Source: Lichina pygmaea (taxonomy: Eukaryota; Ascomycota; Lichinomycetes; Lichinales; Lichinaceae). From it: a stretch of 64,000 nt of DNA. This document shows, piece after piece, positions 19,649 to 40,512 of this stretch. Under the pieces are notes generated by a model. The model did no database searches and was not told the origin of the DNA. It saw only the letters and a list, made by a program, of their open reading frames with translations. How positions within the stretch are numbered: position 1 is the first letter of the stretch; each line of letters begins with the position of its first letter. The position numbers and the translations under genes were made by a program. The DNA lies in the NCBI GenBank assembly GCA_963422465.1, contig OY730172.1, positions 2,976,001-3,040,000 on the forward strand. Direction: 5' to 3'.

Positions 19649-20771
19649 CCACAGTTGAGCTATGCCGAGGCATAGCGCAGAGTCGACATCCCGTGCAGGG
19701 TCTCTGCCACGCTTCCCCGCAGTCCTGAGGTCTTTTGCGCTCCGCCGTGTACGCTCACCCCTAGGTCCTGCTTCGGAGCGCCGGGTTGCCAGCCCGGAGC
19801 CCACGCTCCAACTGCAGTTTGCTCCTTGAGCCCGTTATTTGCAGCCTGAGCCTGCACTCTGTACGGACCGGCATGCGCTTCCGTCCTCTCGGGCCATATA
19901 GACAGTCTCGTAGTAGGCCCAGACCCTACTGCCGTCACTGCCATTATATGCCACGCCCCGCAGCTCTCGCTGTTTCGCGTTATCTCTGTAGATCTCTCGT
20001 ACAGAGGCCGACCATGCCTCGCAGGCTCTACGGACCCTGCAGGCCATGCCAGCACCTGCAGGACCGCCTTTCCAGCCCACTAACCAAGTAGGGAGAAGTC
20101 TCCGTCTGCCCGCTGTCGCCTGTGGGACCCCGGATGTACGTGGTGGCCCACTGGAGAACCTCCAGTGCCCTAGCCCCGGTCCGTAGGTGGCCCGAAGAGA
20201 ATCCGTGGCAAGACCTTAGGCAAAACCATCAAGCCAGCACTTTGACTATCACACAGCCCTTAGGTACTGGAGCGGCGGAAACCCTTCGTGCCACCTGCTC
20301 GCCTTCTTTAACACGTAGTCCCCGTTCGATTAACAACGCCGCGGTACAGACATCGCTCCCCTCCTAGAACAAGATCCTCGATGCATCAGCTGCTGGAGAC
20401 TCTGCCAGAAGGGGGGTGTGCGATAGGAACTCCTCTCGTCTACTCCAGAGGTGCCCTGTCGGGTGTCTAGACTTCACATCCACCAGTTGCAAGGCTGGCT
20501 TCGGGCCGTAGCGTACACGGTAGACATCCGTCGGGTGGTTTTCATAACCAGTTTGGTCGAAGTCCTCTGTTCTGCTGATGTCGCTTCACGGGGGTGTCCA
20601 GGGTGCCTGCACGACACCTCCGGTGGCCCGTCGCTCCACGGGCACCAGCAGCTCGACCGGTGACTCAATTAGCTCTCGGTGCAGCGACTACAAGCAGCTT
20701 GGGAGACTGCCTGCCATCGCTGCCCCGAGGTTCCCAGCCTGCACCGCGTGGAGGTTTGAGTCTTCGCAGGC
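19649..20771 (-). mobile_element. Unit X copy 1 (1,123-bp non-coding module fused to LINE)
   Basis: In minus sense it starts GCCTGCGAAGACTC and ends CTCAACTGTGG, where LINE sequence begins. Copy 2 (35806-36928) has exactly the same length and ends and only a handful of differences. GC-rich and full of CpG. Short open frames exist on both strands but none resembles a protein. A fixed 3' end joined to different LINE positions in three copies shows that X is a discrete unit, most simply a reverse-transcribed RNA. By size and arrangement it resembles WEIRD, the 5' part of the composite element MINE of Magnaporthe; I cannot test sequence homology. Confidence 0.8.
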
Positions 20772-20933
20772 CACTGGAAACTTGTAGCTGATGTCAAGAG
20801 CAGACATTTCTTGTCTATGACAATCCTTCCTGACTAGGTGAAGAAGATCTTTGGTCTGCTGCTTATTTAGAGCTTTTGGTCAACCAGTTCATGGAGTGCC
20901 CTTGAAGAACTTGTCCTGGAAGACTGCATTGGT

Positions 20934-21314
20934 TGTCACGGTTCTGGCCCAGTTGCATATCTGGCACAAGTCACGCACCTTGCCGGGAAGTTCCATCTGC
21001 ACTGTTGCCTGTTTGCTCTGCCATTGCCTCGTTGCATATCTGGCACAAGTCACGCACCTTGCCGGGAAGTTCCATCTGCACGCACCTTGCCGGGAAGTTC
21101 CATCTGCACTGTTGCCTGTTTGCTCCGCCGTTGCCTGATCCCCTGCCTATAAGAACTTCTCCTGCTCCCCCAGCTTCTTCTCTTCTTTTCTCTTTTTCTT
21201 CCTTCCTTGTCTTTCGTCTTGTACATCAATCCAAGTCTCAAGTCTCAAGCCAAGTCAGGTCAAGGTTACCGAATCAGTTAGGCTCGAGTTCTGCTCTGCC
21301 ATTGCCTCGTCACA
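20934..21314 (+). repeat. Solo LTR of gypsy family 1
   Basis: 381 bp, starts TGTCACGG and ends CTCGTCACA, flanked by the 5-bp duplication TTGGT (20929-20933, 21315-21319). It matches the LTRs of the gypsy copies at 44078 and 57414. It contains about two copies of a 79-bp minisatellite unit. It arose by LTR-LTR recombination inside the Tc1-type element. Confidence 0.9.
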
Positions 21315-21367
21315 TTGGTGACTGGATTGTAGCCATGCTTGTACACAAGTTGACAAATTCGATAGAT

Positions 21368-21807
21368 TTTTGATTTGATTTGATTTGATTCTTACACTGA
21401 TTTGGCTGTTAAGCCATGCAGAACTTCTTGAAGGATTTTTGTCTCTTGTAGACTTGACTCGGGTACCTCACGCATTTACCGTACACCCCGTGGTTTGTAG
21501 TGTACGTACTGTGGGAAAACCCCAAACCCCGTAGGGGAAATAGGAAAACCACAGTAATGAGGGTTTTGTGGATCTTGACAGATATTGGGTGAGCTATTTC
21601 TTGGGGGTTTTCATACATCTTGCGAGGAGTACATCTTAGACAAGTTCTATGAATCTCGGGGGTTTTTGTGGCAGAATGTGGGGTGGGTCAGATTCGAACT
21701 GACGACTGGTTTAGTCAGGTTCTCCAGGCCTGACACCACTAGTTCCGGGTCATGGGTGCCACGTAGTGGGAAACTCTCACCAGCTTCCCGCTACACCATG
21801 CCGTCCC
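21368..21807 (-). mobile_element. tRNA-type SINE, copy 1
   Basis: 440 bp between 13-bp duplications AAATTCGATAGAT (21355-21367, 21808-21820). In minus sense it opens with a pol III-like head: A box TGGTGTAGCGGG (nt 10-21) and B box GTTCGAATCTG (nt 109-119). It has an unrelated middle and ends in CAGCCAAATCAGTGTAAGAATCAAAT plus (CAAAT)n. That tail is almost the same as the 3' end of LINE copy H (38073 onward) and resembles that of copy A. Copy 2 lies at 44255-44686. No coding capacity. A and B boxes are further apart than in a plain tRNA gene, so the head is derived. Confidence 0.87.
21689..21798 (-). promoter_or_regulatory. Internal pol III promoter (A and B boxes) of SINE copy 1
   Basis: A box at 21787-21798 and B box at 21689-21699, read on the minus strand. 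Both fit the consensus well. In SINE copy 2 the B box has lost its CpG (GTTTGAATCTG), which should weaken it. Confidence 0.7.
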
Positions 21808-22032
21808 AAATTCGATAGATAGTGCTGAAAGAAAGACCTGTGAGGTTGATGATATGATTCACAGGGACACCCTCCTCAAGAAGAGCAAATATACGTGCTT
21901 TCTGCAAGATGCTGATGGCTTTGCTACCCATGGTGTCAGTGATGTGGGTGGTGTCATTCGCAGATTTAGGTGGTGATCTCCAGTCTCATCACTTTTTGGA
22001 GGGATTGCGAATACTTTTGTCGCCGGCTTCCG

Positions 22033-22371
22033 TACGTACGTAGCGAAAGAAGTGGTGTAGGGTCCCAGATGCACCCCTACGTCCTCTCGGTTTCTCGCGC
22101 AAGCGCTCGGAATTTCCTTGGTCCCAGGGCCGTCGTGACAAGGATCACCTTGCGTCATTCTGCAGCGGGTGCAGCCGACCCCACCTGCCGTTCCACCCAG
22201 ACCTCGGTGTGCTTCGCGACCAATTCCTTCAGGACCACATTCACTCTTGGGGAGCCAACAAAAACCTTGGGAAGGCTGAGAGGACGCGGATCATCTTACG
22301 CTTCGAAACTAGCATTGAGGGCGAACGCTGCTAGCAGGGAGACTTTTAAAGCAGCGACACAGATCAAGAAC
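22033..22371 (+). other. Intergenic, 5' region of the YCII-domain gene
   Basis: GC-rich; begins with a CGTACGTACG palindrome at the edge of the Tc1-type element. A plus-strand frame is open upstream of the chosen start at 22372, but shows no conserved motif; a longer N terminus such as a targeting peptide cannot be excluded. Confidence 0.45.
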
Positions 22372-23323
22372 ATGGCGACGAATGACCCCGGCATCGCTAT
22401 CTCCGAGTCCGGTCCGCTCGGCAACACCGGGAGTACGACGGTGATCAGCGCGTCTCGCACTGGCAGGGAATGGTTGGTGATCGCATCTGACCGCGATGGA
22501 GCGCTGCAGCGGCGACTGGAAGTGCGAGAGTACGTCCTGGATCTTCTACTCTCACGCGCTTTCGCTTGCTTTTTCCATGAGCTCTTCAAACAGCTTCAGC
22601 ACTGCCTCTTGCTTGCTCGTCTGCGGATGGCAACAAAGAAGCTCGCGGCCTCGCTTGTCAGATGGTCTTGACGCCCCCCAGGAGCCTTTCTTTCTAACCA
22701 CTCTTTGGTCTTTTCCTGTACATGAACACAGAAATGACGTTCACAGCTTTCCTTGCGGCGACCCACCAAAGTGTGCAGTGAATCACTATATATATGCTTG
22801 CATTGACTCATCTTCCCCTTCAATGTTGCTTCCTACATCTCATTCGCTAAGTCGGTGAACAGCCAACATATTAACAACATGAAACCTCTCGTCAAAGACG
22901 GTGTGGCTAAACTCGGGGGTAAGCGCCTTGCGCCTCCCCCAGCAGTCTATTCAGTTTTGAACTTCTCTACTTTCCTCCTCTGCGCTCCCGATTCCTCTGA
23001 CCTACCTGTTTTAAAGAGATGGCTGACCCGTATCTTCTCCCCTCCTAGGTGCAACACTGGACGCCCATCCAGCTGGTGGAGGACAAACGCCCAAGATGAA
23101 TGGCAGCGTTCTTATCTATGTAGCAGATACAGAAGAGCAGGTGTGGCAGCTGGTCAAAGATGATATCTATACGACAACGGGGGTGTGGGACTCGGACAAG
23201 GTCAGCAGCTTCTGCGTTCTCGTCCCTCAAGCTACAGGTTTTTTTTCTGCCAAGAGCCAGGACAGGCAGGGTCCTTATCAAAGCCATCGTTCGGGGCGCT
23301 TTGATGGCGGTTCATCATCATGA
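22372..23323 (+). CDS. YCII-related domain protein
   Basis: YCII proteins are small dimeric alpha/beta-barrel proteins related to muconolactone isomerases, usually of unknown substrate. Exons read: 22372..22529, 22863..22918 and 23049 onward. The assembled order is REWLVIASDRDGALQRRLEVR, HINNMKPLVKDGVAKLGG, ATLDAHPAGGG, PKMNGSVLIYVADTEEQVW and VKDDIYTTTGVWDSDK, which is the normal order of the family in fungi. Intron 1 is long (333 nt) but ends are GTACGT and CAG; intron 2 is 130 nt. The 3' end is uncertain. Reading on after 23200 gives a non-conserved tail to TGA at 23321-23323. A frame further on (KAIVRGAL, about 23280-23303) looks like the family C terminus but cannot be reached by a clean splice. 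It may be a 3'-end frameshift. Confidence 0.75.
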
Positions 23324-24052
23324 CATGGCTAACCAAGACCGTCTTCGATCGCACACGGAAAGGTGAAGATATATCCGGTGAGTTGCCCCCTTCCTTCCTA
23401 CTCTCAAGACGCACCATCAGTCTCTTCAGTCGGCGTCTACCTCAACTGATAGCTATGATGTCTTCTCGAATACGAAAAGTTCCGCTCGGCGATTCGGGAA
23501 CCGCTCTAGAGACGCCTTTCATCGGTGCGAATCATTTCGGCAGTATCGAAGATTTATAAGCCCAAAGCTCAAGTCCTATTGCTTGTTGATAGACGCAAAG
23601 GATGTTTCAACCCTAGAGCCCCTTGAATTGATATCGTGGATGTATCTCAACTACAATCAATATGACATGAGCATTTCATCGGCATGATATGTTGATCTGA
23701 AGTTTAAGCGTGGCATGTTGAGCTGGGCAGCACTCTCGGAGATGACACCAAGTCATTGTGGGAGTCCAGCAGGGCGTGAAGGGGTAGGTTCGCAGGTTCG
23801 GAAAGGATCTCCAGATACGTACGTAGTACCGTACGGCACGAGGTTCGTAAGCAGATATCTACAAGTATACTGGAGCGGTCGGTGCTTGGACCGAGAGAAA
23901 GATCCTGGGGAATACGTATACTGCTCTGTAGTGGAGTACGGTACGTTACGTACTGCAAGAGTTTTAAGAGTATAGGGTATTACATGTGGCAGCCGCTCTA
24001 GTACGGAGGTACAGTACATACGTTACGAGTATGCTTGCAGTCACGAACCACG
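23324..24052. other. Intergenic
   Basis: No gene recognised. 23815-24030 is rich in GTAC palindromes (ACGTACGTAGTACCGTACGG and similar). Confidence 0.5.
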
Positions 24053-24054
24053 TA

Positions 24055-24730
24055 CGGAAGCCCGCGACAAAAGTATTCGCAATCCCGCCAAAAAGTGACG
24101 AGACTGTAGGTCACCGCCCAAACCTGCCCACTGACACCACCCAAATCACTGACACTATGGGCAACAAAACCATCAGCATTGTGCAGAAAGCATGTGTACT
24201 TGCTCTTCTTGAGGAGAGTGTCCCTGTGAATCATATCATCAATCTCACAGGTCTTTCTTCATTCCAGCACTATCTATTGAATTCATCAGCATGTGTACAA
24301 GCATAGTGTCAGGAGCTAGTTGCCCGACCGGGCGCTTAGTCATCGTGACCTCTGACTAGGCAGGCGGGTGCAGCCGCATTTATCTATCGCTAGTACAGAG
24401 AGTAGTAGTCTTTTGGCTCAGTTCGCTTTAGCCTACTCCGTACGGCACCGCGCGACACATAGCTACAATTCAGTCACCAATACAGTCTTCATGAGGACCC
24501 AAAGATGTAGTGGCATCAGAGGAAGAAGAAGAGAAGTAGCAGAGTGACAAGAGCTCAGATTGGGAAGATGACTAGTCACAAGACTCAAGACCCAAGAATT
24601 CTGGTGGTGGAGAAGAGGACCAGCGATAATAGCAACAAGAACTCAGATTAGGAGGAGAAACGCGGGTGTGTCTCACGAATTTTGTTGCCCCCATACAAAT
24701 GATTGCGAATACTTTTGTCGCGAGCTTCCG
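24055..24730 (+). mobile_element. Short Tc1-type element (internally deleted) related to 20772-22032
   Basis: Terminal inverted repeats CGGAAGC(C/T)CGCGACAAAAG continue to about 30 bases, with TA on both sides (24053-24054, 24731-24732). After a spacer it encodes MGNKTISIVQKACVLALLEE and VNHIINLTGLS, the same helix-turn-helix as the element at 20772-22032. It then breaks up; most of the transposase is gone. A 151-bp solo LTR is inserted at 24307. Length without it is about 520 bp, so it is a MITE-sized derivative. Confidence 0.83.
24307..24457. repeat. Very short solo LTR (151 bp, TRIM/SMART-like)
   Basis: Starts TGTCAGGAGC and ends GCGCGACA, flanked by CATAG on both sides (24302-24306, 24458-24462). 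The flanking sequence continues the transposase frame of the surrounding element. LTRs this short are typical of miniature LTR retrotransposons. No internal sequence remains. Confidence 0.78.
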
Positions 24731-24960
24731 TACTGTACCCCTGAATGTTACTCAGCAGAGACAACGTCTTTTATGATCGTCGCTTCCAAGACGTTAAATT
24801 ACGTACTCGTACTGTGCGTGCAGTACGGAGTACGTAGATACTTAAAGACTCGTACAGTACGTATATGCTACAGCAGAGACTTCGAGCGCGTGGAATTGGA
24901 CCGCTAAGCTCAAGTCCGGCAAATGAACAAGCCAGGAGCACGGCCAAGCCACGGATCATA

Positions 24961-27456
24961 ATGACGGCTCGTAAAAACCAATTGAAGGAGTTGGAAGAGC
25001 AAGTTGATATCGTCGATGCTACTCAAGCAATCAACTCGGCCTACCATGTCCATGGCTGGCTGGGAGGTTTCGAGGGCGTTGATCTACTCCTGTCAACATA
25101 CATAAGCCCAATCGCCGTGGCTGCCCGAGCGGAAGAGCTTCGACTGGACGTGAGCAAGGGCCTGTGTCCGATCCAGGTCTCCGTCTTGACCGGTCAAGGC
25201 CCTGTGGAATGCATGATCAAAGACTCGGCCGAGGCGTATGGCGGGACTCTCTCGACTCAGATCGTGGGCCTCACCCTTTGCGCCCTTTTCCATGAATGCG
25301 ATCAGCGCGATGCGTTGATGGTGTTTATGAAGGCCATGGTGCCGTATTTCTTCGAGGGCTTGGACGAGGTGGTCGACGACCTGCAGACGCAGATCAACGA
25401 CAATTTCGACCGGATATACAATGAAGGGGCTGCCCGCTGCCTGACGGACCGCTTCAGGTGCGCAGTGGCCGACTTGGACAACCATGGCGGAGACCGGGCA
25501 TACCTACGAGAGTATTCCAGAATCGATTTCATTGCCGACCCTCATCCGTCTGAGGTGTCCATGTTAGGAGGCTTCCTGAAGTGGATCACCCAGTACAAGA
25601 AGGGAACGTACTTCACCAGGAGTGGCCTGGTAGCCCGGGTAGCGGCCTGCCTGAAAGTGGTCGGGTACCCCATTGGCTCCATCCAGACCGCTACAGGGAC
25701 CGATGATCCCGAGCTCCCACCCAAAGATACTGGCTTGATCCCCGTCGTGGTCGTGCTCGGTGGCTCCAGCCTGTACGATCCACTACAGCTCGGACACGAT
25801 GAGGTCATGGGGGGTTGGTACGCGGATCATTATAGCCACCAGTCGGTAGGGCGTATGCTTGTGGCCGCTCTCGGCTATCAGTCGGATATCAGCCCTGAAT
25901 TCCTCCAGAGGGAATTTGAATACATCTACGACTACCTCGAAGAATACCTGGTCATCACATACGAGGCGTGCGATGACGCGGTCGCGGCCCCCAGGGCGAC
26001 GGCGGACTGGTCGAGAGAGCCGCCACTGTGCGAGGAGGACGACGAATACTACCGCATGGTCGCACTCGCCGAACTCTACTTCCCTAGCTCGGGAGAATAC
26101 ATCGCGCACTGCTACAGGGCCATCACCAGCCGGCAAGCGTACGAAGAGATTTTGGACAACCAGGCGATCATGGGCGTCTTCGATCATCCGTTCCCGGAGA
26201 GCCTGGCCTTGTTCCGCGCGATCACGGCTGCCATCGCCATCTCAATCGCGAGCCGTCTCGCGCCCGACACGTTCAAAGACACCGAGCACTGCGTCAGCCT
26301 GGACCTTGGAGACGACAATTGGCTCCAGGACTTCGGCGACATCGTTGAAGAGCTGTTAGGCCCGGACGACGACGGCAAGAAGGGGCTGGAGTTTCACAAG
26401 GCGGTCGGAGTGGTTGCCGCTGTCCACACCGCGGCACAGATCGAAGAGGTCAGGTCGACCAGGTCGAACGTGATAGGTTATCGCACCGCAGTCTATTCGG
26501 TTGTGCCGTCCTTACTGGTCAAGATGGCCCCCTCGAGGGACGCGCTTGGGCTGTGTTGTCTTGATGGATTCCTGGGCAACATAAGAACCAACAAGAAGGG
26601 CATTGTTAGGAGCTCATCTACTGTAAGGCTGTATCAGGCTTGGCATCCTTCCGACGTGGACAACGGCTCGTTGGATCCTCCCACTTCCGGCACCGACCCT
26701 CCCACGATCGAGCCTCCCGACGTCCCTATGACGCTACATCTTGGGGCTCCGGCCTGGCACGGGAGTTCTGCGTTGTGTCTCCGTGGTAAGGCTGGAAAGA
26801 CCGTCGCAGGCGAAGCCAGCATCGTGGACGTTCTCGCAGTCCTTGCCGCCAGCCTACGGGAACCGCAAGTCTGCACTCACCAGATCCCTTGCAAGATCAA
26901 CGTCATCAACACAAACGTGAGCACGTGGATCGCCGGCGGACACACCAAGCCGGCGAGGCGATATCAGGTCACGTACGTGCCCGTCCACCGCCACGGCCCC
27001 TCGGCTCTTTTCTTCGCCGGACAGGCAGCCCAGTTTGGCGCGAGGATCATCTACCGATGCGTCGAATGCGCCGTCGTACGACGTAAATCGCACGAATGTG
27101 TCCTTTGCCCAGACTGCCGGACATGTCATGATTGTTGGTCGGGTCCAAGCTCCGGTGGGCATCAGCTCCTCAATGAAGGCGGTGATGCCAACCAGGGGGG
27201 CGAAGAAGGAGATGAGCACGAGAATGGCGAAGGAGACCATGATCCGGCTACGACCGATGATGAAGATCAGGGCAACAACACTCCGATCACGGCGACCACA
27301 GGAGATGATTGGGAGGATATCGAAGGGGACGAGCCGAGCACCACCAGCAGCGGCACTGATGAGTTCGAATTCGCGTATGGCGATTTCGGAAAGGTGCCCG
27401 TGACGGTGTTGATTGGCTACCACTCGTCCCAAGATCACGATTCCAACGCTGCCTGA
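24961..27456 (+). CDS. Orphan intron-less protein, 831 aa, Cys-rich near the C terminus
   Basis: I do not recognise this protein. The frame is open from 24865, but I prefer ATG 24961 (MTARKNQLKELEEQ); the upstream residues are low-complexity and the next ATG follows a short leader. Residues 1 to about 640 look globular and acidic, with motifs such as VDIVDATQAINSAYHVHGWL and LGGSSLYDPLQLG. A Pro/Ser/Thr linker follows (about 26670-26730). Then a Cys cluster at 27055-27150 (CVECAVV, HECVLCPDCRTCHDCW) could bind zinc. The tail is strongly acidic (DDEDQGN, DDWEDIEGDE). No signal peptide or membrane segment is evident. The coding sequence is GC-rich and keeps CpG, unlike the surrounding repeats, so it looks selected. 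It lies in a transposon-rich island, 230 bases from a Tc1-type element. Confidence 0.8.
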   Translation: MTARKNQLKELEEQVDIVDATQAINSAYHVHGWLGGFEGVDLLLSTYISPIAVAARAEELRLDVSKGLCPIQVSVLTGQGPVECMIKDSAEAYGGTLSTQIVGLTLCALFHECDQRDALMVFMKAMVPYFFEGLDEVVDDLQTQINDNFDRIYNEGAARCLTDRFRCAVADLDNHGGDRAYLREYSRIDFIADPHPSEVSMLGGFLKWITQYKKGTYFTRSGLVARVAACLKVVGYPIGSIQTATGTDDPELPPKDTGLIPVVVVLGGSSLYDPLQLGHDEVMGGWYADHYSHQSVGRMLVAALGYQSDISPEFLQREFEYIYDYLEEYLVITYEACDDAVAAPRATADWSREPPLCEEDDEYYRMVALAELYFPSSGEYIAHCYRAITSRQAYEEILDNQAIMGVFDHPFPESLALFRAITAAIAISIASRLAPDTFKDTEHCVSLDLGDDNWLQDFGDIVEELLGPDDDGKKGLEFHKAVGVVAAVHTAAQIEEVRSTRSNVIGYRTAVYSVVPSLLVKMAPSRDALGLCCLDGFLGNIRTNKKGIVRSSSTVRLYQAWHPSDVDNGSLDPPTSGTDPPTIEPPDVPMTLHLGAPAWHGSSALCLRGKAGKTVAGEASIVDVLAVLAASLREPQVCTHQIPCKINVINTNVSTWIAGGHTKPARRYQVTYVPVHRHGPSALFFAGQAAQFGARIIYRCVECAVVRRKSHECVLCPDCRTCHDCWSGPSSGGHQLLNEGGDANQGGEEGDEHENGEGDHDPATTDDEDQGNNTPITATTGDDWEDIEGDEPSTTSSGTDEFEFAYGDFGKVPVTVLIGYHSSQDHDSNAA

Positions 27457-28696: not shown

Positions 28697-28821
28697 TATT
28701 CATCTTAATAAGAAAAAAACTTTGAATAGCCACAACCAGCTTTGTAGAGAAAGCTTGCACACTCCACTCAGAGCTACAGCAACTTATAGAAGTAGCCAGT
28801 CCCACTGCTGATAAGACCCAG

Positions 28822-29863
28822 GTGAACAGAGGACTACTCTGGCAGATCACCAGACACCTGCAGGCATCAATCACACAGACTGAGACCTCCAACACCAGTG
28901 CTGCAACACCACCTGCCCACCACAACACCACTGAGCCCACCCCAAGAACTATCCTTAAGGTGGTTCAGTGTATTGAACAACAACTGGATACTGGCCTACC
29001 ACCTCCCAATAGTGACAACTCCTACACAGTGGCAGTCCAGCAAGACACCACCATGCACCCAGCCCCACAGCAACAACAACTGCCTTCACTACTGCAGTCT
29101 ACAGCACCCCCCCAGTGCAAGTTCAAAACTATTATAGTCTACACCAGAGACTCAGATCAGGTGGCAGGCCTACAGTGGGTAGCCTGCAAGAAGCTTCTGA
29201 AGCACATCCAGATGGCTGGTGGCCACACCTCACAGATCATCAAGATCTGCCATATAACAAGTGGTGACTTGCTTATCAGAACACAGACAGAGGCAGCCCA
29301 CCAGAACCTTGAGAAGGATACAACATGGCTGGAACAGGTGGCCCCCTCTGTGATCATCAAGAGGTGTACCTACACAGTTGCTGCCCACAGTATTCAGATC
29401 ACCAGTGTGAACACAGTGTCAGAGCTGGACTATTAAGACTCTGCTACAGCAGAACTGGTGACTACACCTGGAGCTTTGCATCAAACAGCTCACCTGGCCC
29501 AAATCTGTAGAAGGCAAACACTACTCTATATTGCACATCAACACCTACAATGTGGCAGCAGCCAACCACCTACTCAACAAAAAGCTAATCAAGAACTTGG
29601 AGATCCACACCTGTGAGGTGTACAACAGGGCTGCCCACCTTACACAGTGCTTCCACTGCCAGACTTACAGTCATGTTGCCAGAGCATGCAGAAACATAAC
29701 CAAATATACCTACTGCACTGGAGAGCACTTCTCTGGAGGGTGCAGAAGAACTGACAACCTCTTGAAAACAAAGTGCACCAACTGCCACAGAGCAGGCCAC
29801 TCAGCCTGGATGAAGGTGTGCCTAGTCTGTGACTGGAAGATTGAACAACTCCAGACTATTTGA
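28822..29863 (+). pseudogene. ORF1 remnant of LINE copy E (CCHC knuckles)
   Basis: Two main frames, 28822-29436 and 29531-29863, separated by a stop and frame change. The second has three knuckle-like units: CFHCQTYSHVARAC, CTGEHFSGGC and CTNCHRAGHSAWMKVC. The layout (three knuckles at the C terminus) matches family 1 ORF1, although sequence identity is low. Confidence 0.75.
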
Positions 29864-32345: not shown

Positions 32346-32350
32346 TATAC

Positions 32351-33178
32351 TATTTTTTTATTTGATTCTTACACTGATTGTAGCTTTACAGCCATGCAGA
32401 TCTTCCAGCTAATAGTGAACTTCTTCAGAAAACCTTTAAAGAAATAAAAACTGAAGATATAGAAGTGACCAGAAAGTGTAGTAAAAGAAAATCTTGTAGT
32501 ATCTGGTAGAAAAAGCTTCTAGATGTTGGGGTGTGAATAGTGAAGTTTGAAAGCCAGATTAAATTAGTTTAGTCTTTTCAAAGACATGAACCAGTACAGA
32601 AACTTCTGTAGAAGCTCTGAGTTTGAAATAATAGTAGTGAAATCTTGAGGGTTGAAGAGAGTATGTTGTCTTTAACTTGAGTAGAGAGAGCATGAAGAGG
32701 TAATATATTTTACTATCTTTTCTGCTTGACTACACATGTATAAGAGAGTAGGAAAGTCAGAGACTCCAGCTCTGAAAAGAAAACTTGCTAGACTAATTCT
32801 CCCAGTTCTGGTTTGCAGTAGTAGACTTGCCTCAGCTTTCTGTAGCTTTTTGTAGAGCTTCAGGTTGTTGTAGTGAGGTTTTTGGCAAAACATCTGCCAC
32901 CCAGTATAGCTTCTTCTTTTCTTCTTCTTCTATTGGTTTTCCCACTCTTTAGTAAAGAGTATTTGTAGTTCTTTCTTTGAACTAGCCTGGTTAGTAGTTA
33001 TTTGACTTAACTAAATAAACTTCCAATTAGGAGAGATAGTTGAGGATTTCTTTAAAGATTTTCTCAGTGAAGAAGTATAGAAAGAAATAGTAGAAAAAGT
33101 ACTGTCAAGAAAGTTTTTCAGAGAGAAGGTTTGGATAGAAGAAAGAAAACAGACTGCAAAATTTAAAATAGAGATCTA
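32351..33178 (-). mobile_element. 5'-truncated LINE family 1, copy F
   Basis: Tail TTTTTTTATTTGATTCTTACACTG at the left, then 3' UTR and the C-terminal part of ORF2 in minus sense (MFCQKPHYNNLKLYKK near 32893). Degenerate with stops. It ends at 33178 where a copia LTR begins, so copia went into F or the two were joined later. Confidence 0.83.
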
Positions 33179-33461
33179 TGTTCAACTGTGAACACTACAG
33201 TGAGCAGTGGGAAGAAGAAGATGAGTGTCATGACTGATTACATTGATTAGGGAAGACTAGCTAATCATCTATATGTAGACACAAAGCTGATGTTTGCCTT
33301 AGAGCAGCAGAAGGCTCTAGAAGGCATGATGCAGCTCCATGCGGGATTGACAGAAGGCAGTGTTGACAGGAGACAGCAGAGACAGCACTGGGCAGCTCCA
33401 TGCTGGATCAGCTGCAATATGCGGCAGTGCTATGTGGCAGCAGCAGAATCAACATCAAACA
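33179..33461 (-). repeat. 3' LTR of the copia element
   Basis: 283 bp; in minus sense TGTTTGATGTTG...CAGTTGAACA, directly after the purine-rich GATCAAGTGGGAG. No second copy is present in the window, so the end is inferred from the TGTT/AACA termini. Confidence 0.7.
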
Positions 33462-34643
33462 CTCCCACTTGATCTGCTGCAACATCATGCAAGATCAATC
33501 TTGACCTGCCACAACACCATCAAGCCCCAGTTGTTGAACAAACCTCCCAAATTTGATCAGCCCTAATAGCTTTGTCAGGCTGTCTGCCATCATGTCTGCT
33601 GTAGGGATGTATGTTAGCAGGATCTTATTGTCTTCAGCTTTCTCCCAAACATAGTGATACTGAATGTTGATGTGCTTCATGTGTTTGTGGTGCATCAGGT
33701 TCTGCGACACTTGGATAGCACCCTGGTTGTCACAATAAAGCAATGTCAGCTCAGTCAGATCTGAGTTTAGCTGTCCCAGGTGAGCAAGAAGTCTTTGTAG
33801 CCACACTACTTCTTTAGTAGCTTGTGTGGCTGCCATGTACTCAGCTTCACAAGACAAGAGAGTGACAGTTGGCTGCAGCTTTGACTTCCAGCTGATTAGC
33901 CTGTTGCCCAGCTGAAAAACATAGCCTCCAGTAGATCTTGTCTCCTTGTTGCCTGCCCAATCTGAATCAGTGTAGCCATGTAGATCTCTGGTGCTGAGTT
34001 CTCTGTAAGTGATGCTGTAGTGCAGTGTCCTCTTAACATAGTGCAAGACTCTCTTGAGCACTCTCCAATACACATCAGTCAGGTTTGTCAAGTACTGGCT
34101 CAGCCTAGAGAGGGTGTAGGCTAGATCTGGGTGAGTGTTGAGCATCATGTACATCAGAGATCCAATTGCTGATTAGTATAGCTTGGCTAGCTTATCAGGC
34201 AGTCCAGAGTCTGGAGGTGGAAGGTGCAGGCCTTCTTCCATCAGAGTTGCAACAGGCTTGCTGTCATCCATGTGGTGGTTCTCTAGCACTTTGCAGAGAT
34301 ACTCAGTCTGATCCAGGTGTAACATCTGTTTCTCCCTGTCACAGGTGACCTGGATTCCTAGGAACTTCTTGCACAGTCCTAGATTCTTCATCTTGAAGTG
34401 TTGGCTGAAATGCCTCTTCAGCTGGATGATCTTGTTGGTGTTTGAACCAAAAAACAGCATGTTGTCCATGTTTTTTTTGATTTGATTTGATTCTTACACT
34501 GTTTGTAGCTTTACAGCCATGCAGATCTTCCAGCTAATAGTGAACTTCTTCAGAAAACCTTTAAAGGAATAAAAACTGAAGACAGGGAGGTGACTAGAAA
34601 GTGTAGCAAAAGGAAATCTTGTAGTGTCTGGTAGGAAAAGCTT

Positions 34644-35795
34644 CTAGATGTTGGAGTGTGAATAGTGAAGTTTGAAAGCCAGATTAAATTGGTTTAGTCT
34701 TTTCAAAGACATAAACCAGTACAGAAACTTCTGTAGAAGCTCTGGGTTTGAAATAATAGTAGTGAAATCTTGGGGGTTAAAGAGAGCATGTTGTCTTTGA
34801 CTTGAGTAGAGAGAGCATGAAGAGGTGATATGCTTTACTGTCTCTTCTGCTTGACCACACATGCATAGGGGGGTAGGAAAGTCAGGGACTCCAGCTCTGA
34901 AAAGAAAACTTGCTAGACCAATTCTCCCAGTTCTGGTTTGCAGTAGTAGACTTGCGTCAGCTTTCTGTAGCTCTTTGTAGAGCTTTAGGTTGTTGTAGTG
35001 AGGTTTTTGGCAAAACACCTGCCATCCAGCATAGCCTTTTCTTTTCTTCTTCTCCCATTGGTTTTCCCACTCTTTAGTAAAGAGTATTTGTAGTTCTTTC
35101 TTTGAACTAGCCTGGTTAGTAGTTATTTGACTTAACCAAGTGAACTTCCAATTAGGAGAGATAGTTGAGGATTTCTTTAAAGGTTTCCTCAGTGAAGAAG
35201 CATAGGAAGAAATAGTAGAAAAGGTACTGTCAAGAAAGTCTTTCAGAGAGGAGGTTTGGATAGAAGATAGAAAACAAGCTGTGCGAAATTTAAAATAGAG
35301 ATCTAGAGGTAAAAGAAAAAGCTCACTCTCTAATAGAAAAGAAGGAGTGGCTTTGAAAGCACCCCCAATAAGTCTCAGACATTTGTTTTGGAATATGATA
35401 AGAGAGGAAATATTAGAGGATTTTCTGAGTGGGTTGAACCAAATTCCCACTGCATAGCTCAGTACAGATCTGAGTATTGCAGTGTACACAAGGCGTGCTG
35501 TGAGAACTGGAAAGCCCCAGGTGGAGTAAGAGGTTCTAGAAAGAGAAGATAGTGCTTTTTGTGCTTTTTGAAGAATAATTCTCTGGTGTTTGTGCCAGTG
35601 GAGTTTGGCATCCAGGTACACTCCCAATACTCGCACTTCTTCTTTTGGTTTTAGAATCACATTCCCAAGTCTAAGCTTGAGCTGCAGATTGTCTGATCTT
35701 CTTCTGGAAAAATGAAGTATTTCATATTTCTCAGGAGAGAAGACCATTCCATGTCTTGCAGCCCAAGATAGACATTTAAGATGTGTATTCTTCAA
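34644..35795 (-). pseudogene. LINE family 1 ORF2, C-terminal part (copy G)
   Basis: An open frame of 383 codons in the LINE half of the composite, from MKNTHLKCLSWAARHGMVF to the normal C terminus HYSHSN. It lacks the endonuclease and the RT active site. No stops, about 95% identical to copy A by eye, so the insertion is recent. Confidence 0.85.
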
Positions 35796-35805
35796 CTTCA
35801 GAAGG

Positions 35806-36928
35806 CCACAGTTGAGCTATGCCGAGGCATAGCGCAGAGTCGACATCCCGTGCAGGGTCTCTGCCACGCTTCCCCGCAGTCCTGAGGTCTTTTGCGCTCC
35901 GCCGTGTACGCTCACCCCTAGGTCCTGCTTCGGAGCGCCGGGTTGCCAGCCCGGAGCCCACGCTCCAACTGCAGTTTGCTCCTTGAGCCCGTCATTTGCA
36001 GCCTGAGCCTGCACTCTGTACGGACCGGCATGCGCTTCCGTCCTCTCGGGCCATATAGACAGTCTCGTAGTAGGCCCAGACCCTACTGCCGTCACTGCCA
36101 TTATATGCCACGCCCCGCAGCTCTCGCTGTTTCGCGTTATCTCTGTAGATCTCTCGTACAGAGGCCGACCATGCCTCGCAGGCTCTACGGACCCTGCAGG
36201 CCATGCCAGCACCTGCAGGACCGCCTTTCCAGCCCACTAACCAAGTAGGGAGAAGTCTCCGTCTGCCCGCTGTCGCCTGTGGGACCCCGGATGTACGTGG
36301 TGGCCCACTGGAGAACCTCCAGTGCCCTAGCCCCGGTCCGTAGGTGGCCCGAAGAGAATCCGTGGCAAGACCTTAGGCAAAACCATCAAGCCAGCACTTT
36401 GACTATCACACGGCCCTTAGGTACTGGAGCGGCGGAAACCCTTCGTGCCACCTGCTCGCCTTCTTTAACACGTAGTCCCCGTTCGATTAACAACGCCGCG
36501 GTACAGACATCGCTCCCCTCCTAGAACAAGATCCTCGATGCATCAGCTGCTGGAGACTCTGCCAGAAGGGGGGTGTGCGATAGGAACTCCTCTCGTCTAC
36601 TCCAGAGGTGCCCTGTCGGGTGTCTAGACTTCACATCCACCAGTTGCAAGGCTGGCTTCGGGCCGTAGCGTACACGGTAGACATCCGTCGGGTGGTTTTC
36701 ATAACCAGTTTGGTCGAAGTCCTCTGTTCTGCTGATGTCGCTTCACGGGGGCGTCCAGGGTGCCTGCACGACACCTCCGGTGGCCCGTCGCTCCACGGGC
36801 ACCAGCAGCTCGACCGGTGACTCAATTAGCTCTCGGTGCAGCGACTACAAGCAGCTTGGGAGACTGCCTGCCATCGCTGCCCCGAGGTTCCCAGCCTGCA
36901 CCGCGTGGAGGTTTGAGTCTTCGCAGGC
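35806..36928 (-). mobile_element. Unit X copy 2
   Basis: 1,123 bp, same ends and length as copy 1. Differences are few; those I noticed are single transitions such as T/C at about 35990 and A/G near 36412. CpG retained throughout. Confidence 0.82.
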
Positions 36929-38072
36929 CATGTTGTCCATGTAGATCATGATTGTGACTCACCTGTTGGTGTAGACTACATGATCCATGTCTGTTGTGTA
37001 CAGATTCTGATCGTACTCCACTGAGTCCTGGGAATAGTCTTGCTTATTCAGGAAGCTAGCTAACATTCTGAACCAGGCTCTTGGGGATTGCTTCAGTCTG
37101 TAAAGTGACTTGTTGAGATAGCATACCATGCCAGGGATGTTGCTCTGGAAGCCTTCTGGCTGCACAACATACATGTCTTCTGCCAAATCACCATGGAAGA
37201 AGGTAGTAACAACATCCATTTGCTCTATCTCCTGATCTTCAACAGCCGCAATAGCAAAAAGAGTTCTGACTGACACTATCTTCACAACAGATGCAAACAT
37301 GTTCTTGAAATCCAGCCCTGGATGTTGCATGTAGCTTTTGGCTACCCAGTGTGCCTTGAACACTGGCTCTTCTCTGTCTCTTGGCTTCAGATAATAAACC
37401 CATCTTCCAGGTAGGGCTTTCTGATCAGGTGGCAGCTGAACTAGATCCCAGGTGTTATTCTTGTTATGAGAGGCAATCTCTTGTTCTATTTCTTTGTTCT
37501 ATTTCATCCAATTTGGATTCTTTTTGGCTTTCTGGTAAGTCCTAGACTCTGTCCCTGTCTCAGAGATAGCCAATAATCCTCTGGCAGGTGGTCATCCTTT
37601 GTTGATTCAATCAGAACAACAATTTGGAGGTGGGGCTGCAGTTGCAGAGTCCTGCTGATTTGCACAGTCAGAATTGGTGGGATTTGGACAGTCAGGATTG
37701 CCAGAATTTGGACAGTTGGGATTGCCAGAATTTGGACAGTTTGAACAGTCGGAATTGGGGGCTGGAGTAGGAGCATCAGCAGTAGCTGAGTCCTTGAGAT
37801 TTGCACTGTCAGTACAACAGGGATGTTCTGGAAGAGTAGCAACAGGCTGCTTGACAGTCAGTTGCTCCATAGTCAGTTGCTCTTGATGATTACTGCTAAT
37901 CTCTTCAGCTAGGATCAGATTCAGCTCCACTGTCAAGCTGATGCCTAAGGGCAACAACAGATTCTTGTCCTCCAGCTGCACTGAGGTATTGCCTGTGCCT
38001 TGCCCTTTGCTGTTTTTGTTGAAGACCATGTCTCTGGCCTGTATGTGACTTTCTTCTTTGGATCCCACAGCC

Positions 38073-39978
38073 TATTTTTATTTTTATTTTATTTTATTCT
38101 TACTCTGATTTGGCTGGTGAGCCATGCAGAACTTCTAGATACATGCTTTTTTTTCCAGAAAACCTTTGAAGGAATAAAAACTGAGACTTGGGTAAGACTA
38201 GGGAATTATCTGGAAGAATATACAGTGTCTGGAGAAAATAAAATCACAGAGATGATAGGTTTTCTGGTAAGAGTTGGTGTGCTAAGTTAAACTAGTCTAG
38301 TCTTTTCAAAGACATAAACCAGAGAAGAAATTCTTTAAGCACTTTAGGCTTTTGAAGTAAAGTAGAGAAATTATAGAAAAGAAAAGTGGCTTGCTGTCTT
38401 TGAGTAAGAAACTTGTTACAAGAGAAAGTGATATATTGAGCAGTCTTTTCTCCAAAACCACAGAAACATAGAGGGGATTAGAAGTCTGGAACATTTGCTC
38501 TGAAAAGAAAGCTGGCTAGTCCTATCCTTGCTGATAGAATCTGCAAGTAAAGACTAGCTTCAGCTTTTCTCAAGTTTTTGAAAACTTTGAGAATTTTCCT
38601 TTGGGGTAGTCTGCAAAATAGCTCCCAGACTGGAGAACACTTCTGTCTGTTTACCTGCCATCTGGCTTCCCACTCTTTCTGAAACACTTCTTGAAATTGT
38701 TTCTTAGAGTAATCTTGGTTAGTGGTTAGTTCTTCTAGCCATCTTGCTTTCCAGTTAGGTGTGACAGTAGACAGAGACTTTGGAAGTGTTCTCAGAGTAG
38801 AAACAAAAACAGTGATCTGAGAAAAGAGCTTATAGAGAAGTGAGAAGAGGATTAGAAGAAGTATTAGAAAAATAGAAAGATTGTAGGAAAGTTGCTGTTC
38901 TGAATTTGAAATAAAGATCAAGAGGTGGTAGGAATAGTTCTCCTTCAATAAGAAATGTAGGAGTAGCTTTGAAGACATCTTCTATAGTTTTTAGACACTT
39001 AGTCTGGAAAAGATTTAGAGAAGAAATATTAGAAGGTTTTTTGTGGAGATTGAACCAGATTCCTACTGCATAGCTGAGAAGTGATCTCAGTATTGCAGTG
39101 TAGACAAGTCTAGCAGAGAGAACAGGTAGACCCTATATAGAAAAAGTAGTTCTGGAAAGTGCTGAGAAAAACTTGGAAGCTTTCTGTAACATGATTCTCT
39201 GGTGTTTTTTCCAGAGAAGCTTGGAATCCTAGTGTAGTCCCAGAATACACACTTCTTCCTTAGACTGTAGTACCACTTCTCCAAGTCTTAGACTAAGCTG
39301 AAGATTATCTGTTCTTCTTCTAGAAAAATAGAGAAGTTCATACTTTTCAGGTGCAAACTTCATTCCATGTTTTCTTGCCCAGTCTAAACACTTGGAGTGA
39401 GTAGACTTTAGCTTCAGGAGATTGCTTTTAAGAGAAGGGGAAAATGCCAGAAAGTTTGTATCATCTGCAAAGCCCAGAGCTGATACACCTTTCTCTGGTG
39501 TATGAACAATATTATGAAGATCTGAAATATAGAAAAAAAATAAAATAGGAGAGAGAGGTGAACCTTGAGAGACTCCACAGTGTACTAGAAAAAAAGAAGA
39601 CTCTGAATCATCAAAAACAAGAGAGGTTTTTCTTTGGGTAGTGAAAGAAAAGATCCAGTTAACAAACCAGCTGGAGATTCCTTTTCTCTCCAGGATTTTC
39701 TTGAGAATTTCTGGCAGAACTCTATCATAAGCTCCTGAGATATCCAGAGAAAGAAGACTGGCTACTATTTCTTTCTTCCAGACTTTTTCAACTTAGGAAG
39801 TGAGTAAAAATAGTGCAGACTCAGTTGATCTTCCTTTTCTGAAGTCTATCTGGATTTCTGGTAGTAGGTTTTCTTTCTCAGCCAGTTCACTTAGCTTTGT
39901 GGCTGCCAGAGCTTCCATCAGCTTCCCAATTGTGTTGAGAAGTGCTATTGGCCTCCAAGCTTTGGAATAGCAATAGGA
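38073..39978 (-). mobile_element. 5'-truncated LINE, subfamily with the SINE-like tail (copy H)
   Basis: Tail A-rich, then (minus sense) GCCAAATCAGAGTAAGAATAAAAT. Encodes a diverged family 1 ORF2 C terminus (WKARWLEELTTNQDYSKK, RKAEASLYLQILSARIGLAS) with stops. The 5' end at 39978 lies in the RT domain (SKAWRPIALLN) and is fused to unit X copy 3. The tail is closer to the SINE than copy A's tail is, which makes this subfamily the likely partner. Confidence 0.82.
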
Positions 39979-40322
39979 CCACAGTTGAGCTATGCTGAGG
40001 CATAGTGCAGAGTCACTATCTCTTGCAGAGTCTCTGCCACACTTCCCTGCAGTCCTGAGGTCTTTTGCACTCTGCCATGTACACTCACCCCTAGGTCCTG
40101 CTTCAGAGTGCTGGGTTGCCAGCCTGGAGCCCACACTTCAACTGCAGTTTACCTCTTGAGCCTGTTATTTGCAGTCTGAGCCTGCACTCTGTACAGACTG
40201 GCATGCACTTCTGTCCTCTCAGACTATATAGACAGTCTTGTAGTAGGCCCAGACCCTACTGCCATCACTGCCATTATATACCACACTCCACAGCTCTCAC
40301 TGTTTCATGTTACCTCTGTAGA
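39979..40322 (-). mobile_element. Unit X copy 3, truncated and stripped of CpG
   Basis: Aligns without large gaps to the first 344 bases of 19649 onward. Nearly every CpG in copies 1 and 2 is TpG or CpA here (CCG to CTG, GCG to GTG, ACG to ACA), while most non-CpG cytosines are unchanged. The 3' end (CTCAACTGTGG in minus sense) is the same; the rest of X was lost where LINE copy C begins. Confidence 0.85.
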
Positions 40323-40512
40323 TTTTTTTTGTTTTATTTTTATTTTATTTTTATTTGATTCTTACACTGATAGTAGCTTTTCAGCCATGCAGATCTTCTA
40401 ACTAAGAGTGATTTTCTTCAGAAAACCTTTAGAGGAATAAAAACTGAAGACTGGGGGTGACTAGAGGATGTAGCAAAAGGAAATCTTGTAGTGACTGGTA
40501 GAAAGAAAACTT

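Follow-up and report, generated by a model that had tools for sequence, protein, structure and literature searches.

The closest described system is MINE of Magnaporthe grisea, in which a full-length 1.1-kb noncoding 5' part (WEIRD, 1113 nt) is followed in the same orientation by a 5'-truncated LINE (MGL), with target site duplications (TSDs) of 10-20 bp and no solo copies (PMC2104539). Magnaporthe has 31 MINEs and two other WEIRD chimeras; one case is tripartite, and the junction motif is GCC*A/U (PMC2104539). The WEIRD half is an expressed RNA of unknown nature, for which no gene was found (PMC2104539). Template-jump chimeras of this type are thus already published. What is new here is an apparent HDV-like ribozyme at the start of the fused module, the module as a structured RNA with co-active lineages, and a preference for CC at the junctions.

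The module, X, was recognised in a 64,000-nt stretch of the Lichina pygmaea genome, the whole of which we call the window. The likeness to MINE drawn in the initial annotation holds for the architecture (PMC2104539): a full-length 1.1-kb noncoding 5' part, a 5'-truncated LINE on the same strand, a TSD, no solo copies, a tripartite case and CC in the junction motif. Homology to WEIRD is not supported, as two 20-nt WEIRD primers (PMC3978060) match X at 12 and 11 of 20 positions and shuffled primers give means of 12.2 and 11.9; this is a weak negative, because the letters compared are those of two primers and not of full WEIRD. The CC at X junctions belongs to the LINE and may pair with the end of X RNA, while the MINE paper reports no microhomology, and the word "ribozyme" is absent from its main text (PMC2104539). 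X also differs in its number of places, 137-236, and in having several LINE types and other X as partners.

The Varkud satellite RNA of Neurospora, shorter than 1 kb, is another noncoding fungal RNA; it has a self-cleaving ribozyme and depends on the reverse transcriptase of another element, but it is mitochondrial and plasmid-borne with a VS-type ribozyme, while X copies are nuclear and HDV-type. Elements of the L1Tc/ingi clade have their own 3' end for target-primed reverse transcription, unlike X, which lacks a LINE-like 3' tail and would enter as a second template. According to the available portion of the report on that clade, these LINE-type or LINE-dependent elements resemble X in having a 5'-terminal HDV-like ribozyme (PMC4035085). 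The R2 SIDEs of Drosophila (R2 ribozyme plus an R2 or R1 3' end), so far as the accessible text of their description goes, share with X a 5' HDV-like module and a LINE 3' part recruiting LINE machinery, but they retrotranspose as such (PMC3414825), whereas X has been attached afresh to dozens of LINE positions. Mammalian template-switch chimeras, including U6-L1, also carry a full-length small RNA 5' of a truncated LINE with a TSD; in the part of the source that covers them the donor is mostly U6 snRNA (PMC2104539), whereas here it is an RNA with an apparent ribozyme, from a small number of evolving source lineages.

X copies in the window

X lies at the three sites originally assigned to it (19649-20771, 35806-36928 and 39979-40322), and the end common to all of them, CCACAGTTGAG (the reverse complement of CTCAACTGTGG), occurs in the window only at these three X ends. 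The two complete copies were said to be of equal length, and at 1123 bp and 99.7% identity they are, but this is one base short of the true 1124 nt (see below; Table 1). The three LINE attachment points do differ, falling in LINE-1 coordinates at 16305 (ORF2 endonuclease region), 17940 (in RVT_1) and about 17384 (the RT WRPI block). The LINE-A piece fused to X1 is 100% identical to 16305-16678, and its far side adjoins the tail of a LINE in opposite orientation. Two copies at other loci, L002 and L003, have X letters identical to those of X2 (L004) but different LINE junctions. X3 is a partial copy, cut on its 5' side where a different LINE-A (44077->40336) ends with its 3' tail; its LINE breakpoint is shared with three copies elsewhere (L064, L076 and L086).

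Table 1. Coordinates of X, its LINE partners and associated features in the window (a slash marks the junction)
Feature	Position	Strand	Remarks
GC-rich LINE-B remnants	3134..6810	(+)	RT PF00078; second LINE family fused to X elsewhere
LINE-A ORF1	14384..15862	(+)	zinc knuckles by eye; without Pfam match
LINE-A ORF2	15850..19101	(+)	endonuclease PF14529 and reverse transcriptase PF00078; open in this copy
LINE-A piece joined to X1 3' end	19275..19648	(-)	374 bp; junction GTGG/CCACCCAG
X1, complete copy	19649..20772	(-)	1124 nt; 5' end 20772, 3' end 19649
Predicted HDV-like ribozyme of X1	20662..20772	(-)	RF00094 match; fold descriptor match starting at 20772
X2 composite, 3' TSD	34459..34471	(-)	letters as in 5' TSD; immediately after LINE tail
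5'-truncated LINE-A joined to X2 3' end	34472..35805	(-)	junction GTGG/CCTTCTGA; A-rich tail at end
X2 (L004), complete copy	35806..36929	(-)	
Predicted HDV-like ribozyme of X2	36819..36929	(-)	whole-window Rfam match; descriptor match starting at 36929
X2 composite, 5' TSD	36930..36942	(-)	ACATGGACAACAT; next G possibly part of TSD
LINE-A-related piece joined to X3 3' end	38076..39978	(-)	junction GTGG/TCCTATTG
X3, 3' portion of older X copy	39979..40323	(-)	344-345 bp, 88% identical
LINE-A copy, 3' tail adjoining X3	40336..44077	(-)	

X composites across the genome

The 17-mer of the X end, allowing at most one mismatch, occurs at 137 places genome-wide, and the 5' end of X marks 236; controls gave 0. 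Chance occurrence of the X end is excluded, because the same pattern reversed has no match. We read 137 copies, consisting of the 40 best matches, 77 found via 3'-end places and 20 via 5'-end places. Sequence 3' of X is visible in 133 of them, and in 126 of these it matches a LINE of the window (twice via a second X), the match beginning no more than 15 nt from the X end in 120. The remaining seven 3' flanks match no LINE DNA of the window and were placed in LINEs on weaker grounds. The initial annotation had held that many LINE-free X copies with their own target duplications would refute the fusion model; among the 133 copies with a visible 3' side there is no solo X. X also fails the criteria for a SINE: no solo copy was seen, the X 3' end has no A-rich tail, and the best match to an internal Pol III B box within X is 8 of 11 letters, with up to 9 in controls.

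A TSD of 11-14 bp encloses the whole X+LINE unit in 14 of 20 composites tested, in addition to window X2, and was not found in the other six; even the tripartite X-X'-LINE composite L013 has a single TSD. Each composite with a single TSD therefore represents one retrotransposition event. Copies with the same junction do not group together by X sequence in a tree (judged by eye), and the identical X copies L002, L003 and L004 have three different junctions, from which it follows that the jumps were independent. X composites thus meet the description of a MINE-type LINE template-switch chimera, with a 5' part that copies one noncoding RNA in full, a truncated same-strand LINE and a TSD around the whole unit. 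The jump of LINE reverse transcriptase to the 3' end of a second RNA, as originally suggested, is supported by the fixed X 3' end, the many LINE breakpoints and the common strand; it also fits the copying of X mostly to its 5' end and the one TSD per composite.

The 5' end of X and an HDV-like ribozyme

The first base of X is G in 102 of the 113 copies read that reach the 5' end (A in 10, C in 1), and the start reads GGCCTGCG in 93 of them. The preceding base is mixed (T46/A34/C24/G10, a count that includes L073 despite non-X letters over its first 17 nt), and the TSD stops before the first G of X in 10 of 14 cases, the other four being ambiguous. X is for these reasons one base longer than first stated, giving X1 = 19649-20772 and X2 = 35806-36929. 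Among the 117 copies not selected by their 5' end, 93 reach it. A complete 5' end is missing in 23, many of which were cut by insertions that came later; L073 is without the first 17 nt. Some copies are probably also truly truncated within X, since several 5'-incomplete ones (e.g. L047, L051, L048 and L115) show no later insertion. L119 and L129 have a deviating X 3' end.

No Rfam family matched X at its cut-off, but at lax thresholds the best match was HDV, exactly at the X 5' end. On a 1151-base stretch RF00094 scored 42 bits (E 2.1e-4, at 20659-20774) and in the whole-window search 32 bits, neither reaching the gathering score of 50 bits; P4 of X has 33 nt, against 3 in the model. The whole window, compared with 4227 Rfam families, gave only five matches at E<=2, two of which are HDV at X1 and X2. 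The HDV fold is complete in X, with a nested double pseudoknot, a 7-bp P1 from G1, P2, P3, P1.1, P4 and the J4/2 C. In X1 the elements are P1 GGCCUGC/GCAGGCU, P2 GACUCA/UGAGUC, P3 ACC/GGU, P1.1, a long P4 and the J4/2 C in GCUAA; P1.1 and the role of the J4/2 C are our assignments by analogy to HDV. A fold descriptor matched with starts exactly at 20772 and 36929, and also at 28929, 6164 and 6056; these last three exceed the roughly 0.5 matches expected from controls (2 matches in eight one-strand controls). The predicted cleavage site coincides with the 5' end of X, G1 being its first base. Covariation lends the ribozyme no support, because its sequence varies too little within X: there is no excess over shuffles, and 7 of 47 have a broken outermost P2 pair. 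X thus appears to begin with an HDV-like ribozyme whose predicted cut falls exactly at the X end, although self-cleavage is inferred in the absence of RNA data.

X as a structured RNA with several lineages

X as a whole is a structured RNA, and its structure is conserved. Its fold energy is -366.6 kcal/mol, whereas 12 column shuffles reach only about -270, and it contains 33 compensatory pairs, against 14.6+-2.7 in shuffles. The predicted fold is branched rather than rod-like. The tree of X copies has the form of a ladder with few sources, and at least three diverged lineages have recent copies, so that lineages were co-active. Lineages A and C have a single difference in the first 120 nt, and 43 of their 51 substitutions lie within 301-720. 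The nature of X RNA, left unknown in the initial annotation, is thereby narrowed: X RNA is structured and apparently noncoding, and its 5' terminus carries an HDV-like ribozyme, but no source of an X RNA having the X 3' end was identified.

Origin and spread of X

The junction structure, the TSDs, the fixed ends, the lack of solo X among the copies read, the conserved structure and the fit to the HDV fold are observations. We consider it probable that X RNA is processed by its ribozyme and reaches the genome as the second template of LINE reverse transcription, with the cleavage and a terminal CC being inferred, as is the spread of X in this way as a non-autonomous element. X would be the DNA copy of a structured noncoding RNA of 1.12-1.16 kb, with a 5' terminus that results from self-cleavage of an HDV-like ribozyme. 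Target-primed synthesis by LINE reverse transcriptase would begin on LINE RNA, and copying would halt part way, often within one 240-base stretch of ORF2. The enzyme would then jump to the X RNA 3' end (...CUCAACUGUGG-CC), probably by pairing of the two terminal bases of its cDNA (mostly GG, the complement of CC), and copy X RNA up to its ribozyme-cut 5' end, and ordinary target duplication would close the X+LINE composite. The source of X RNA is most likely the transcription of some composites themselves; the alternatives are a locus missing from the assembly (e.g. rDNA) or an RNA replicon. The 5' ribozyme would free X from any upstream transcript, and the 3' end would come from cutting directed by a signal within X.

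One alternative makes X a LINE 5' UTR (5' module) and sees the composites as LINEs with internal deletions, which would suit the 5' location of X and the HDV ribozymes that mark R2-type LINE 5' ends. It is nevertheless very unlikely, because X has no window match outside X copies, is therefore not in the window's LINE-A 5' UTR (whereas the initial annotation had named a match of X to the 5' UTR of a full-length LINE as refuting the fusion model), and accounts for the only Rfam HDV matches in the window. Moreover, X is joined to LINE-A, LINE-B, LINE-C and other X, and in L005 and L033 it stands ahead of the LINE-A 5' UTR or of sequence just upstream of that UTR. We give almost no credence to splicing of an X exon to 3' splice sites in LINE RNA, as in spliced L1 copies: a single fixed X end and the reuse of several LINE positions would be expected of it, but AG lies directly upstream in the LINE at only 17 of 108 junctions, and CC follows the junction instead.

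A more serious but still unlikely alternative is that X is an ordinary abundant host noncoding RNA gene, a housekeeping gene as proposed for WEIRD, caught accidentally by LINE reverse transcriptase, its ribozyme-like 5' end being coincidental or a host processing device. The ladder-like tree with few sources and the constrained, structured nature of X agree with this, as does WEIRD, which is reported to be highly expressed and without a solo copy (PMC2104539). However, none of the 133 visible copies is a LINE-free host locus, and the recent copies in three or more diverged lineages also speak against it. In the available parts of two reports, 5' HDV-like ribozymes are known from co-transcribed mobile RNAs (PMC3774820, PMC3414825), and we infer that a promoter-driven gene would need none. 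It is doubtful, though conceivable, that X RNA is an extrachromosomal viroid-like replicon and its genomic copies fossils left by LINE reverse transcriptase. An HDV-type ribozyme on a compactly folded noncoding RNA of about 1.1 kb, several simultaneous lineages and the unseen source locus would fit, and one ribozyme cut in a circle could yield both X ends. One ribozyme can suffice for a viroid-like RNA: the accessible portion of one source has a Trichoderma viroid-like RNA replicating with a single (hammerhead) ribozyme (PMC13343976). Against a replicon, there is no exact head-to-tail X-X junction; near matches (at most 3 mismatches) number 39 against 19 in the control, and 17 of the 39 are one other repeat. 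The opposite X strand, on which symmetric replication would call for a ribozyme, has no ribozyme family at E<=10, the predicted fold is not rod-like, and RNA data are lacking. A fungal HDV-ribozyme RNA replicon evolving at the RNA level in several lineages and archived more than 100 times by LINE jumps onto its linear monomer is, accordingly graded, a long shot; if it were true, the genome would preserve the fossils of a parasitic noncoding RNA that has no gene in DNA, and Magnaporthe WEIRD may be another such parasite.

On the preferred reading of X as a processed second template, this independent case, with far more copies than MINE, suggests that a WEIRD-type RNA can start exactly with an HDV-like ribozyme. 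The "unknown RNA" becomes testable as a ribozyme-processed RNA that, unlike a SINE, would exploit LINE reverse transcriptase by serving as its second template.

Sequence preference at the junctions

Among the 108 junctions with a reference, 93 are distinct, and the LINE dinucleotide at the junction is CC in 48 of the 93. By family, CC is found in 30/63 for LINE-A (background 5.4%) and 25/41 for LINE-B (background 12.1%), against 0/6 in ordinary, non-X LINE truncations. This control comprises only six cases, for which the chance of 0/6 at the LINE-A rate is about 0.02; a seventh non-X truncation (L178), located in another LINE and without a clear boundary, was left out. Junction positions 1-2 show no enrichment of non-LINE letters (9 and 9 of 108, compared with 7-12 at positions 3-6). 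Given CC in 48/93 against 0/6, the jump may rely on pairing of 2 nt with a terminal CC of X RNA, a CC that is itself inferred. In vitro, jumping by R2 reverse transcriptase works best when 1 nt, or no more than 2, is complementary to the acceptor 3' end, according to the part of the study available (PMC8857657). The 93 distinct junctions, the CC preference and the hot stretch in ORF2 constitute a natural record of LINE reverse transcriptase jump sites. The base before the junction CC is A in 52% and G in 27%, and the base after it A in 38% and T in 28%, compared with the G before and A/U after in the MINE motif.

X is a high-copy module joined to LINEs by a fixed 3′ end

The X module (~1.12 kb) is present at the three window places reported in the initial annotation, as two nearly identical copies and one more diverged copy (table). 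The sense-direction 3′ end of each is ...CTCAACTGTGG, followed by LINE-A or a close relative, which is entered at a different LINE place each time.

X copies and LINE family references in the window
Feature	Position	Strand	Remark
X1	19649–20771	minus (sense)	99.7% identity to X2 over 1123 bp
X2	35806–36928	minus (sense)	99.7% identity to X1 over 1123 bp
X3	39979–40322	minus (sense)	88% identity over 344–345 bp
LINE-A	13.9–19.3 kb		reference; the family also includes its relatives
LINE-B	2.9–7.3 kb		reference
LINE-C	28.7–32.3 kb		reference

We searched the genome (32.47 Mb, 8 contigs; the window is C4:2976001–3040000) and found the 17-mer of the X 3′ end at 137 places at ≤1 mismatch (reversed-pattern control, 0) and a 32-mer from the X 5′ part at 236 places at ≤3 mismatches (control, 0). 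Among solved structures, the RPL2 of this genome (L159) comes nearest to 7olc, followed by 7r81 and then others; these two are of Chaetomium and Neurospora, and we regard the host as a filamentous ascomycete. A similarity search, with the best 40 of 302 first-look candidates scored, gave 42 matches; 39 span X 1–1123, one spans 1–1121, and the remaining two shorter ones are diverged copies (X′), each directly beside a complete X. We read 137 X copies: 40 from the best-match list, 77 from listed 3′-end places and 20 from listed 5′-end places without a recognised X 3′ end. Four of the 137 (L118, L120, L133 and L137) are broken off inside X ahead of its 3′ end, and the 3′ end is non-standard in L119 and L129. 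At C7:1795.8–1797.7 kb, two oppositely oriented copies (L089 and L090) lie ~2 kb apart with LTR-like sequence between them, and a short inverted X piece is found near the 5′ side of each.

Among the 133 copies with a visible 3′ side there is no solo X. In 126 of them X is followed, on the same strand, by a DNA-level match to a window LINE: 81 LINE-A (two of which, L013 and L034, are reached after an intervening X′), 43 LINE-B and 2 LINE-C, counts that rest on the window references alone. The match begins ≤15 nt from the X end in 120 copies, at 16 in L054 and at 25 in L007. For L002 it begins at 67, with matches to further X–LINE loci already from base 1. For L033 it begins at 255, and the stretch before it is sequence from upstream of the part of the LINE-A 5′ UTR that the window contains. 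Seven copies lack such a match. Looser comparison assigned two of these (L058 and L128) to a LINE, and the other five (L050, L084, L091, L093 and L130) were assigned by hand to LINE ORF1 regions, because four overlap each other or L128 in a zinc-knuckle frame and L091 resembles the ORF1 coiled coil.

The junctions vary on the LINE side. For 108 copies a reference covers the LINE sequence upstream of the junction, and among these we count 93 junctions distinct by their letters, a number possibly inflated by mutations. The shared X end is what the initial annotation had noted in the window copies. The 240 bases at 17269–17508 (LINE-1 coordinates) in ORF2 of LINE-A are a hot stretch for jumps, holding 26 of the 69 mapped X junctions. 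Within window 15850–19648, the tail of a LINE-A with an open ORF2 meets the tail of the 374-bp LINE piece of X1. This piece shows 100% identity to 16305–16678, and no remainder of the LINE part of X1 was found in the window.

Composites are enclosed by single target duplications

The LINE 3′ end was retrieved for 20 X–LINE composites, 10 by pattern and 10 by prediction from the junction. In 14 of the 20, a target site duplication (TSD) of 11–14 bp immediately follows the LINE tail and recurs at the X 5′ end. When each is compared with the 3′ ends of the other 19 composites, matches extend to 0–10. The exception is L009 with 14; the 3′ end of L017 also has the L009 target sequence. No TSD was found in six of the 20 (L057, L017, L011, L019, L026 and L036). 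The window X2 composite bears its own TSD, ACATGGACAACAT. In L013, a single TSD encloses X, a 5′-truncated X′ (83% identical) and a LINE, a structure comparable to the tripartite element described in the MINE paper (PMC2104539). The fixed X end, the varied LINE junctions and the one TSD around most composites tested support the template-jump mechanism advanced in the initial annotation.

The order of X, diverged 5′-truncated X′ and LINE is found in both L013 and L034 (sense 1324 onward), and in L058 the 3′ end of X′ is joined to X beginning at about position 45. Such fusions could arise if the template jump happened twice, or if an X′–LINE RNA was retrotransposed and one jump followed.

X is apparently a structured noncoding RNA with a putative 5′ ribozyme

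The initial annotation had pointed to folding and to Rfam as ways to characterise X. The consensus fold of 24 copies of all lineages has −366.6 kcal/mol and 328 pairs, 33 with compensatory changes, and is far more stable than 12 column-shuffled alignments (−261 to −285 kcal/mol; 14.6 ± 2.7 compensatory pairs). The resulting z of −13.7 is rough, because column shuffling ignores neighbours. A G-C to A-U exchange occurs in the 3′-terminal hairpin GCTATGCC..GGCATAGC in 3 of 24 rows. Rfam gave zero matches in the whole window at curated cut-offs. With lax filters, the HDV ribozyme (RF00094) was the best match in the X1 region (42.0 bits, E 2.1e-4, 20659–20774 minus), short of the curated cut-off of 50 bits. 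A scan of the entire window on both strands with 4227 families left five matches at E ≤ 2, of which two are HDV (X2, 32.5 bits; X1, 32.2 bits).

A purpose-written descriptor of the HDV double pseudoknot found 5 start sites across both window strands, and two of them fall exactly on the first base of an X copy, X1 and X2 respectively. As controls, eight Markov sequences of 64 kb, each scanned on one strand, gave 2 sites in total. The other three (minus strand 28929, 6164 and 6056), all within LINE-B/LINE-C-type stretches, are above chance too and lack Rfam support. Among the 113 copies in which the X 5′ end is present, 102 begin with G, and the base in front of it is mixed. In 10 of 14 TSDs the duplication stops ahead of this G (ambiguous in the other 4). 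Since this G is conserved, the TSD ends before it and the predicted ribozyme starts there, the integrated 5′ end corresponds to the predicted cleavage product. Lineages A and C have one difference in the first 120 nt, and 43 of their 51 substitutions fall within 301–720. Three diverged copies (L122, L130 and L135) retain the pairing of helix P4 by way of G-U changes, and 98% of ribozyme cells in the X family are paired, 30–40% with partners slid. Covariation shows no excess over shuffles in this ribozyme, which is too invariant within the family for the test. Judged by these models, the X 5′ end looks like an HDV ribozyme, and self-cleavage is inferred.

Several other identities for X were considered. 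A protein-coding X is rejected: the longest sense ORF has 94 aa in each of lineages A, B and C, against 120 aa in C2, and these lengths are inside Markov controls (median 82, 95% 149). We reject a SINE with an internal B box, as no B box stands out in X, and a telomerase RNA, as lineage A has neither CCCTAA nor TTAGGG. The position of X ahead of LINE sequence could suggest a LINE 5′ UTR; we reject this too, as X matches in the window occur only at X copies, and Rfam HDV matches only at X. Splicing as the origin of the junctions is rejected on the junction letters. No relative of X was found in plasmid sequences by blastn or in viral contigs, where one exact 25-base pattern only was searched. 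From its predicted fold and short frames, X is apparently a structured, noncoding RNA.

LINE bases at the junction are enriched for CC

Of the 93 distinct junctions, 48 have CC as their two LINE bases, 16 have TC and 14 have CT. We ran the test per LINE family; the background of the pooled test (5.8%) had come from LINE-A alone. By distinct 8-mers, CC is found in 30 of 63 for LINE-A (background 5.4%) and in 25 of 41 for LINE-B (background 12.1%). The CC consists of LINE letters, because positions 1–2 differ from the reference in 9 and 9 of 108 chimeras, no more than positions 3–6 (7–12). If the X RNA ends in ...GUGGCC, the last two cDNA bases would pair with its CC, giving the observed product. 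The genome has 708 LINE-A 3′ ends. As a control we took 20 young LINE-A 3′ ends that lack X, chosen at random; 13 extend beyond the retrieved stretch, one (L178) has an unclear boundary, and none of the 6 usable truncations starts with CC (GT, TA, TA, AT, CT, TT). At the LINE-A CC rate this has a chance of ~0.02 and is therefore modest support only.

In work with purified R2 RT, jumping was best when one or at most two bases were complementary to the 3′ end of the acceptor (PMC8857657). For MINE junctions, the motif GCC*A/U and an absence of microhomology are reported in PMC2104539. The MINE GCC motif and the X junction CC would be the same thing, if WEIRD, the noncoding 5′ part of MINE, ends in (G)CC.

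X copies fall into several lineages and decay after insertion

In a tree built with FastTree from 93 near-complete X copies, inspected by eye and without support values, at least 3 lineages have recent copies. The best of these differ from the majority of their lineage at 0, 3 and 5 positions; older copies split off ladder-wise. X is identical in L002, L003 and L004, yet joined to three different LINE positions. Some junctions are reused (four copies at CCAAGACA, three at CCAGACGT), as they would be if one composite had been copied; same-junction copies are ungrouped in the tree by eye, so we reject this, and the reused sites look like hot spots. Private mutations are mostly at CpG (1196 of 1625 G>A after C; 1130 of 1352 C>T before G) and so point to decay after insertion. 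The usual RIP is CpA-type, and the sequence pattern of the X copies suggests CpG-directed decay instead.

The tree and lineage pattern would mean few sources for the X copies. Transcribed and trimmed composites, a locus missing from the assembly and RNA-only replication all remain open candidates. rDNA as a source cannot be judged, because a conserved 28S 32-mer has 0 genome places and rDNA may be missing from the assembly. The putative 5′ ribozyme argues by inference that X is a mobile RNA, because a host gene with its own promoter would have no need of it. No head-to-tail X multimers were seen. Near matches to a head-to-tail X junction included 17 occurrences of an unrelated repeat that contains the 18-mer CAACTGTGGTGCCTGAGT; the X end also has CAACTGTGG of this repeat, which may be a chance resemblance.

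Comparison with MINE and R2 SIDEs

The likeness to MINE, the WEIRD–MGL chimera of Magnaporthe, suggested in the initial annotation, holds for architecture (PMC2104539), and the X–LINE set is a new, much larger instance of this known kind. Homology of X to WEIRD is unsupported by two WEIRD primer sequences, a weak test on primers only. R2 SIDEs (PMC3414825) unite a 5′ ribozyme and a LINE 3′ end in one unit, as X composites appear to do; the R2 ribozyme features compared with X come from PMC3774820. We found no description of an HDV-like ribozyme on WEIRD or a fungal LINE chimera in open-licence PMC titles and abstract openings, which leaves its absence from print unproven. The putative 5′ ribozyme of X is new for this kind of element and is relevant to what the donor RNA in MINE-type chimeras may be.

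Other window features

An open frame of 872 aa at 24838–27456 has zero Pfam matches. A frame at 2134–2760 with an SPDLN-like stretch resembles, by eye and without a Pfam match, the end of a Tc1/mariner transposase. A 79-bp unit is repeated three times in tandem at 49765–50001, with single related units at 44773, 47966, 56429 and 57619. A 50-bp minisatellite (AAGTGAGCAAAGTGAGCAGAGCTCACC...) occupies 50145–50229 and 55980–56164, in sequence that appears by eye to be of LTR type.
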